Shown here piece by piece: positions 14,794 through 19,710 of a DNA stretch of 64,000 bases. A program made the translations under genes and the position numbers. Source of the stretch: Planotetraspora kaengkrachanensis (GTDB lineage: Bacteria > Actinomycetota > Actinomycetes > Streptosporangiales > Streptosporangiaceae); NCBI RefSeq assembly GCF_016862895.1, contig NZ_BONV01000019.1, positions 62,001-126,000 of the forward strand. The letters are read 5' to 3'. Below the pieces are notes generated by a model. It did not search any database. It was not told the DNA's origin and saw only the letters and a list, made by a program, of their open reading frames with translations. Each line of letters starts with the position of its first letter. The stretch's first letter is position 1.

Positions 14794-14823
14794 AAGCTAA
14801 AGTGTTTAGCCTACGAGTGTCAA
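14794..14823 (-). promoter_or_regulatory. Promoter and TetR-type operator of the hydrolase-TetR operon
   Basis: On the minus strand, -35 TTGACA (14823-14818) and -10 TAGCTT (14799-14794) are separated by 18 bp. The spacer holds GCTAAA-GTG-TTTAGC (14796-14810 on the plus strand), a perfect 6-bp-arm inverted repeat. A repressor there would block RNA polymerase directly. Confidence 0.7.
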
Positions 14824-14844
14824 CCGCCAGATCAATACCGGTTC

Positions 14845-14873
14845 TTGACGTCTTGGGAGTCGGGCCGTATGCA
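14845..14873 (+). promoter_or_regulatory. Promoter of the APC permease gene
   Basis: TTGACG (14845-14850), a 17-bp spacer and TATGCA (14868-14873), about 35 bp upstream of the permease start. Confidence 0.45.
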
Positions 14874-14906
14874 CGGCGCTCAGTAGCGTTTCGTGATGTG
14901 GCGGCC

Positions 14907-16802
<1,896 letters not shown>

Positions 16803-18208: not shown

Positions 18209-18240
18209 GGTGGCTCCCTTCGGACGCGTTGTCACTCTCG

Positions 18241-18269
18241 GTTGTAACCAGTTACTCTCTGTTTACAAC
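18241..18269. promoter_or_regulatory. Inverted repeat upstream of the SH3 protein gene
   Basis: GTTGTAA (18241-18247) and TTACAAC (18263-18269) form 7-bp arms around 15 bases, with GTAAC-CA-GTTAC (18244-18255) nested inside. It lies 33 bp upstream of the gene in a local AT-rich island, so it is probably a regulator site or part of the promoter. In the remaining ~215 bp up to 18483 I saw no confident feature. Confidence 0.45.
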
Positions 18270-18483
18270 GCCAGGACGTCCACGCGGGATTTCTTTACCG
18301 TTAAATGGCGAGCGAGTAGCGGAATGTCCTCGATGGTCATGGTTCTCGATGGCTCTTTTCTTTGCAGGTCGTGGCGTTTCCCGGGACCGCACCCGGGGGG
18401 ATCCAGACAGCGGGCGACGCCCAAGAAGCGGTCAAGAAGATCTCCACGGGGTGGCCGCCGCGTATTCGAGGAGTGGTTGCGAC

Positions 18484-19710
18484 ATGTCCTCAGCCGACTG
18501 GACCCGGGCAGTGGCGACGATGTTGCCGCCGGGGTTGCCGCCGGGGTTGCCGACGACGATGCCGCCGGTGTCGGAGCGGACCTGGACGGCTGTGCTCCTG
18601 GTCGGCGCCTCCACCGTCGCCGGCGCCTGGCTGGCCCGGCGCAACTCCCGGCGGTTGACCGCATGGCTGGCGGTCACGTCGGCGTTGATGCTGGTCACGG
18701 CCCTCGCCGATCTGCTGCCCGACGCCTGGAGCGACGCGGTCGCCTGCGGCGTCCCCCTGTGGGCCGTGGGACTCGCGGCGGCCTTCGGCTTCCTGATGAT
18801 CACGCACCACAGCCGCAAGTCCTGCGCCTGCGACCTGGAAACCACACGGCCGCACGCCGCCGAGCACGCCCCCGGGCGGCATCGCCGTGTGCGCGGCATG
18901 GTCGGCGCGGCCGTCTTCGGCGGACTCGAGACCGCGGCAGCGCTCACTCTGCACCGGGCGATCGAGGGAGCCACCCTGGCGTTGAACGCCACCCTCGTCG
19001 TGGTGATCGCGCTGATGGTCCATTCGGCCAGCGAGGGGCTGGCCCTGGCCGCGCTGCTCGACGTGGGCGGGCAGCGCCTCACCCCGTGGCTGGTCGTGGC
19101 CTGCGTGAGCCCGGCCGTCGGAGTGCTCGCCGCGACCGTGAGCCCGCTTCCCGGCCAGGTGGTGCCGATCCTGCTGGGCATGGTGACGGGAGTCGCGGTG
19201 CGTACGGCCATCGCCGGCATGCACCACGCCGCCAGCAGGCACGAGCGGGTGATCGTGTCCAAACGCCATCTGGACGTCGCCGCGGCGATCGTCGTGACCG
19301 GCGGCGTCGTCCTCGTGGGCGCCTACGGCGTGCGGACCCATCGCGACAACGACGGCCACCCGCCGGCGAGCGCCCTGGGCACGCCGGCGGCCGCCGCCAC
19401 CTCCACGCCCGCCGCCTCTCCCACGGCCACGTCGTCCCCGATGACCCGTGCGGACCTCGGCACGGCCGTGGCGTCCGGCCGGATGAGCCTCGCCGACGTG
19501 CTCCGCGACGACGGCGGCGTGGCCGGACGGGTCGGAGTCCTGTGGGTCCTGCGGCACCTGCCCGACTACGGGTCGGCCCGGTCCGCCGCCCTGCTCGCCG
19601 CCATCGGCGTCGACCGCAGGAGTCAGGTCGACGACCTAGACTCCCGCGAGCGCAGCGCGCTGATCAAGGCGTTCCCCCGCTCGACGGTGGTCCCGCGGCG
19701 CAGTCCCTAG
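18484..19710 (+). CDS. ZIP-like metal transporter fused to an actinobacterial IHF-like (H2TH) domain
   Basis: A 408-residue protein. Residues about 35-285 form a membrane domain with ZIP signatures: LPDAW near 79, HRAIEG (H157, E161) and HSASEG (H180, E184), equivalent to the paired metal-site helices of ZIP transporters. A cytosolic HHSRKSCAC loop could also bind metal. After a final helix (AAAIVVTGGVVLVGAYG) and an Ala/Thr/Pro linker, residues 320-408 read SGRMSLADVLRDD...VLWVLRHLPDYGSARSAALLAAIGVDRR...LDSRERSALIKAF. This follows the helix-two-turn-helix fold of actinobacterial IHF, although several DNA-contacting basic residues are replaced by Asp. The start is ATG 18484 with GAGGAG upstream. 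Its stop overlaps that of the convergent oxidase gene. Confidence 0.8.
   Translation: MSSADWTRAVATMLPPGLPPGLPTTMPPVSERTWTAVLLVGASTVAGAWLARRNSRRLTAWLAVTSALMLVTALADLLPDAWSDAVACGVPLWAVGLAAAFGFLMITHHSRKSCACDLETTRPHAAEHAPGRHRRVRGMVGAAVFGGLETAAALTLHRAIEGATLALNATLVVVIALMVHSASEGLALAALLDVGGQRLTPWLVVACVSPAVGVLAATVSPLPGQVVPILLGMVTGVAVRTAIAGMHHAASRHERVIVSKRHLDVAAAIVVTGGVVLVGAYGVRTHRDNDGHPPASALGTPAAAATSTPAASPTATSSPMTRADLGTAVASGRMSLADVLRDDGGVAGRVGVLWVLRHLPDYGSARSAALLAAIGVDRRSQVDDLDSRERSALIKAFPRSTVVPRRSP

Follow-up and report, generated by a model that had tools for sequence, protein, structure and literature searches.

Transporters of the ZIP (SLC39) family typically have both termini outside the membrane, as described in PMC9278863, where BbZIP is given an additional N-terminal helix that makes its arrangement in/out, with the C-terminus outside; ZIP4 is likewise drawn with both termini extracellular (PMC9727157). 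Most ZIPs contain a second metal site, M2, whose loss lowers transport only modestly, so that M2 is no requirement for membership (PMC11549095). In ZIP4, removal of the extracellular domain is reported by one source to lower Vmax by 70-80% (PMC4915132) and by another to leave Km and Vmax similar (PMC9727157), and its role is thus debated even there. The former source also states that a large extracellular ZIP domain exists only in vertebrates (PMC4915132). No paper on a fusion between a ZIP and actinobacterial integration host factor (mIHF/sIHF) was found in our literature search, which covered some of the open-licence papers; the earlier note likewise knew of no described transporter-IHF fusion.

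The window, that is, the whole 64-kb stretch of DNA analysed here, comes from contig C19, part of a genome of 8.77 Mb, and carries such a fusion (Table 1). Its nearest named relatives are in Planotetraspora phitsanulokensis (89% identity over the best segment) and P. mira (82%). The frame is open without a break from the ATG at 18484 to the TAG at 19710, which confirms the earlier note's account of one gene holding both halves. A frameshift between the halves, or a misassembly, is rejected, the same fusion having been fetched as 49 genes from 30 genomes. After an N-terminus of about 30 residues, where the structure model shows no N-terminal domain, the predicted helices span residues 31-53, 58-88, 92-114, 133-167, 171-195, 199-219, 226-251 and 260-290. 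In the C-terminal domain, LPDYGSARSAALLAAIG corresponds to residues 359-375 and RERSALIKAF to residues 388-397.

Table 1. Features of the fused gene (window positions, with what each assignment rests on).
Feature	Position	Strand	Basis
Whole gene, ZIP transporter fused to an actinobacterial-IHF-like domain	18484..19710	+	408 aa + stop; sequence, profiles, model, structure comparison
Ribosome-binding-site-like GAGGAG, ten bases 5' of ATG	18468..18473	+	Sequence; also in sister loci L033, L034
ZIP membrane part, residues 31-290	18574..19353	+	Eight long model helices; BbZIP structure match; Pfam Zip in 42/45 members
TM3-TM4 loop, residues 115-132	18826..18879	+	Basic-rich in family; predicted cytoplasmic; H128 in 68/69 rows
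HRAIEG, TM4 metal motif, residues 157-162	18952..18969	+	R158 in 69/69 rows; BbZIP H177/N178/E181 equivalence by motif only
HSASEG, TM5 metal motif, residues 180-185	19021..19038	+	H180, S181, E184 in 69/69 rows; BbZIP equivalence by motif only
Pro/Ala/Thr-rich linker, residues 291-319	19354..19440	+	Low model confidence; length 20-129 residues among 45 members of A1
Actinobacterial-IHF-like H2TH domain, residues 320-397	19441..19674	+	Profiles, model, structure comparison
Counterpart of canonical mIHF turn LPGVGKVRAK, residues 359-368	19558..19587	+	Basic positions 364, 366, 368 unconserved in fused family

The naming of both halves, proposed earlier from the letters alone (ZIP-like for residues 1-310, mIHF/sIHF-like for residues 320-408), is borne out by profiles and structure. 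PF02535 matches the window protein weakly (E 0.0033, 17.1 bits, against a cut-off of 35.1) and 42 of 45 family members at E <= 0.01, the best at 6.8e-11; these 45 form alignment A1, i.e., the 49 fused proteins less L015, L049, L053 and L054. The structure prediction of the full protein, which the earlier note had called for together with a profile search of the C-terminus, gives eight helices with the BbZIP fold for the membrane part and the sIHF/mIHF fold for the C-terminus. In the PDB, the sequence profile of the family reaches no BbZIP chain at E values up to 10. As for the metal sites, the M1 ligands mapped by motif are H157 and E161 in 68 of 69 aligned rows and H180 and E184 in all 69. 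The M2 pattern is absent by the same mapping, R158 and S181 standing in 69/69 rows where Asn and Asp would be expected. Family match, modelled fold and M1 ligands thus assign the protein to the ZIPs, minus the M2 site.

For the C-terminus, the profile search returns actino_IHF NF041260 over residues 310-397 (E 1.2e-8; 35.3 bits, under the 60-bit cut-off), and PF22525 matches the isolated C-terminus at E 4.6e-4 (16.2-20.6 bits, under its 27-bit cut-off). In the family at large, actino_IHF matches 40 of the 45 members (best 2.4e-16), and there are profile matches to mIHF (6tob, E 6.3e-12) and sIHF (4itq, E 1.2e-8). By sequence and modelled fold the domain is a homologue of actinobacterial IHF, one that scores below the curated cut-offs and lacks the basic turn GVGKVRAK.

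On which side of the membrane does this domain lie? With loop borders drawn by the author from hydropathy, Lys+Arg averages 3.5 (TM1-2), 6.2 (TM3-4), 1.7 (TM5-6) and 4.9 (TM7-8) in the loops predicted to be cytoplasmic, none of which is at zero in any row of A1, and 0.4 (TM2-3), 0.0 (TM4-5) and 0.3 (TM6-7) in the outer loops. The N-terminal tail averages 0.6 and the first 15 residues past TM8 1.3, together with 2.1 acidic residues. This positive-inside pattern and the usual ZIP topology predict that both ends, and hence the H2TH domain, are outside the membrane, which would keep the domain out of reach of the chromosome. It counts against such a placement that the topology derives from sequence and homology, and that the linker contains 8% Arg (beside 20% Pro, 18% Ala and 9% Thr over the 45 members). 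The reading we favour, with a probability of roughly 0.55, is that of a divalent-metal ZIP importer with an extracytoplasmic H2TH accessory domain that acts on uptake, ZIP4-like in its working; from the fold, the M1 residues and the loop charges we infer both transport activity and the outward location of an accessory domain.

The surface of the domain has changed with respect to mIHF. Positions 364, 366, 368 and 383 (window numbering) are the invariant basic positions of canonical mIHF, here not equated with DNA contacts: among 27 canonical proteins, Lys364, Arg366 and Arg383 occur in all 27, while 26 have Lys at position 368 and one has Arg. Alignment A2 comprises 39 fused domains (L053 and L054 are included; L015, L049, L013, L024, L045, L047, L062 and the loop-deleted L064, L067 and L068 are excluded), in which the commonest letters are P13 A7 S6 R4 at 364, R9 E8 D7 K3 at 366, A14 R5 T4 D3 at 368 and G27 A8 D3 S1 at 383. 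Acidic residues had been noticed at several of the basic positions (VDDLD); this is true of the window copy and its closest relative, and family-wide the replacements are mostly neutral or mixed. The turn is shorter by seven residues in L064, L067 and L068 and by three in L014, L015 and L037.

Beside canonical mIHF or apart from it, several family genomes encode a further mIHF-like paralogue that is soluble and has a turn of the LPGYGPAK type (L079, L084, L087, L089, L075, L088). In these six proteins the letters are P6 at 364, K5 R1 at 366, A5 S1 at 368 and G6 at 383, so that three of the four basic positions had gone before the fusion, and 366 alone was given up after it (basic in 6/6 soluble paralogues vs 12/39 fused domains). 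Since most of the loss predates the fusion, that loss alone is no argument for extracellular life, and the idea that the turn was lost because of the outside location is weakened. Fused domains and soluble paralogues have R342 (33/39 fused) and R390 (38/39 fused) in common. T347 (26/39), W354 (22/39) and D384 (29/39) are mostly kept in the fused domains and in neither the paralogues nor canonical mIHF, a pattern that suggests a new contact surface.

It is conceivable, though we hold it unlikely, that the outer domain retains polyanion affinity and anchors the transporter to extracellular DNA or anionic wall polymers. Its descent from a DNA-binding family and a mean net charge of +3.3 over the 39 fused rows (soluble paralogues +4.3, canonical mIHF +5.6) speak for such an anchor. 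However, the charge ranges from -1 to +15, some domains not being basic (a slightly different domain cut over 45 fused rows gives a mean of +2.2 and a range of -2 to +14), the basic positions of the turn are unconserved, and the turn itself is shortened in some members.

The fusion recurs in the family of the window. At E <= 0.001, 255 of 297 genomes match, many over the C-terminal part only, as mIHF-type proteins would. The survey of genomes keeping both halves in one gene, proposed in the earlier note, covered 68 fetched ZIP genes in 44 genomes. The domain is present in 49 of these genes and missing from 19, and 30 of the genomes contain at least one fused gene; hits in G172, G083 and G109, a second copy in G162, two in G607 and one in G615 were left unfetched. 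Fused and unfused paralogues coexist in the same genomes, two fused and one unfused in that of the window. Further afield, a sample of 296 genomes of the phylum matches at E <= 1e-12 only in the window's own genome. The 50 matches in an order sample of 297 genomes all come from the window's family, and the sample tells little about other families, the unmatched rows shown belonging to the same one. A six-frame profile search beside 21 loci (the 19 unfused genes, L071 and the distant homologue L073), many with flanks of 1.5 kb only, found no hidden domain in other frames. In L074:3995-4516 (-) and L076:3959-5263 (-), fused-type domains are preceded by little or no ZIP part, perhaps as remnants of deleted fused genes. 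In a search of the phylum for other mIHF-domain fusions, PF22525 matches 137 of 149 genomes, with frames judged by length only; one frame in G308 has 726 residues.

Two trees bear on the origin of the fusion. On the ZIP tree, built by a quick method from 70 rows (49 fused, 19 unfused and 2 outgroups), domain presence and absence need about 11 state changes, at least six of them forced by starred branches. In the domain tree, made from 54 rows and 91 columns with 9 of the 27 canonical mIHFs, the 39 fused domains are united in one clade (SH-aLRT 88), which groups with two soluble mIHF-like paralogues (97) within the larger set of six and apart from canonical mIHF (100). Both trees fit a single capture, from a soluble mIHF-like paralogue, with several losses later on; the shortness of the domain keeps the support moderate. 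The 19 of 68 fetched genes without it, together with the 11 or so changes, indicate that the domain is dispensable in many lineages.

Could the domain be a decaying passenger, presently with no role beyond sparing the transporter harm? Repeated loss would agree with this, as would the unfused paralogues that persist beside fused ones, the window's own genome included. Substitution rates were compared in 21 related, non-independent pairs, one of which is undefined (four non-synonymous changes against none that is synonymous). In the 20 defined pairs, dN/dS of the domain lies between 0.05 and 0.74, with four pairs at 0.62-0.74, and exceeds that of the ZIP part (0.09-0.34) in 15/20, which speaks for a passenger; it is nevertheless below 0.4 in 15/20, the domain is intact in 49 genes, and its core as well as T347, W354 and D384 are kept in most of the 39 rows. 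In the linker, dN/dS exceeds that of the domain in 15/20 pairs. The domain is under constraint, weaker than that of the transporter, and a passenger with no present role is improbable.

The earlier note had suggested that the domain may bind a protein or a different nucleic acid and, depending on metal, hold it at the membrane. Such a tether needs a cytoplasmic C-terminus and draws on the homology to DNA-binding sIHF/mIHF, but the loop charges of the 45 members and the usual ZIP topology place the C-terminus outside, and the basic turn, invariant in the 27 canonical mIHFs, is unconserved in the 39 fused domains and partly deleted in some members. A tether of DNA or another nucleic acid is therefore very unlikely on topology; of the original proposal, binding of a protein or other ligand may yet hold.

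The neighbouring genes add a context to the transporter. Among 41 loci (38 whose flanks reach up to 4 kb, together with L033, L034 and L082; Pfam identities checked for examples), 19 hold a CDF zinc-efflux relative, 17 an ArsR relative and 36 a DivIVA-domain gene; ten control loci hold none of the three. The CDF and ArsR neighbours, present at related loci and absent from controls, were counted for a zinc context, and zinc is probably the substrate. A search for a Zur box with a 15-base consensus gave no support (best match at most 11/15, in 13 of 73 stretches, with one 11 in 30 shorter control loci), and is a weak test. In L057:1624-2916 (-), one frame combines matches to cation efflux and its dimerisation domain with one to an ArsR-type HTH, and is a possible CDF-ArsR fusion.

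Leaving out the window gene, a DivIVA-domain gene lies on the strand of the ZIP gene at 55 of 68 ZIP loci and on the opposite strand at none; the same-strand cases comprise 37/48 fused and 17/19 unfused genes and L071. It is upstream in 38 and downstream in 17, a rough split, and L028 and L071 are dubious, the frame traced there overlapping with the ZIP gene itself. Of the 13 loci without such a gene, ten have flanks of only 1.5 kb, and two of these ten have longer copies (L033, L034) that are likewise devoid of DivIVA. Examples of the pairing are L036:5305-5967 (-), L038:5026-5838 (-), L064:5081-5401 (+) and L082:3016-3750 (+). The N-terminus of the DivIVA-domain partners is often His-rich; as far as their uncertain starts allow, 42 of 53 contain at least five His and 17 of 53 an HxHxH-type motif. 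No paper on a DivIVA-ZIP gene pair was found in the literature search, which again covered some of the open-licence papers. That a cytoplasmic C-terminus binds the paired DivIVA-domain protein, as the same-strand pairing might suggest, is highly improbable, considering that domain-less ZIP genes are also paired (17/19), that the window clade has the domain where no DivIVA gene was found, and that the predicted topology is outward.

The window copy itself differs from this pattern. Its neighbours encode an SH3_3 protein, a Cu/Zn SodC, a multicopper oxidase and a DUF6220 protein, the first three of which also adjoin the ZIP gene in both sister loci. No CDF or ArsR neighbour is found at this copy, and no DivIVA-type gene anywhere in the 64-kb window, which counts against the favoured reading of a zinc importer with an outer domain; the other copies of the same genome, on C14 (fused) and C2 (unfused), both have a DivIVA neighbour. 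At 18236-18280, between the SH3_3 and ZIP genes, there is GGTTGTAACCAGTTACTCTCTGTTTACAAC, a possible operator most of which is also present in L033 and L034. The stop codons of the ZIP (+) and multicopper oxidase (-) genes overlap tail to tail at 19707-19710. A 666-residue membrane-protein-like frame at 14802-16799 (+) matches no Pfam family at E <= 0.001.

Taken as a history, the importer with an accessory domain would go back to the capture of a soluble mIHF-like gene by a ZIP gene, an event placed in the window's own family. The captured domain would hang by a flexible linker off the outer end of TM8, where it may contact the ZIP dimer, an envelope protein or the wall from outside, and such contact could tune metal uptake, stability or placement of the importer. 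We consider it somewhat better than an even bet that a nucleoid-associated protein was captured once and became an extracytoplasmic accessory domain, with the ZIP core and its DivIVA pair in the wider family hinting at spatially organised zinc uptake. If so, the family would offer a clear example of a DNA-architectural domain put to new use across the membrane from DNA. The natural fused and unfused pairs in the same genomes open the effect of an outer domain on a ZIP to testing, and the DivIVA pairing hints that metal uptake may be tied to polar or septal organisation.

How does the family compare with known systems? With respect to BbZIP and the GufA/ZupT side of the ZIPs, it adds a folded C-terminal domain and has, by motif, Arg and Ser in place of the second-site residues N178 and D208. 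Unlike mIHF/sIHF (NF041260, PF22525), its domain is fused to a membrane protein and predicted to be outside, and both the first basic helix and the GVGKVRAK turn are absent. Closest to it in the domain tree are the soluble mIHF-like paralogues, which share Pro364, Ala368 and Gly383 with it but stand alone at about 100 residues. The likeness to ZIP4 and the LIV-1 ZIPs consists in a folded extracellular accessory domain, here predicted. Theirs is N-terminal and made of HRD and PAL-motif parts, as described in PMC4915132, whereas the present one is C-terminal, H2TH and bacterial; lacking an N-terminal extracellular domain with a PAL motif, the protein is no LIV-1 member, and the resemblance would be one of working only, unrelated by descent. 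A bacterial ZIP family thus seems to own a folded outer domain, from another source and at another terminus than that of ZIP4.
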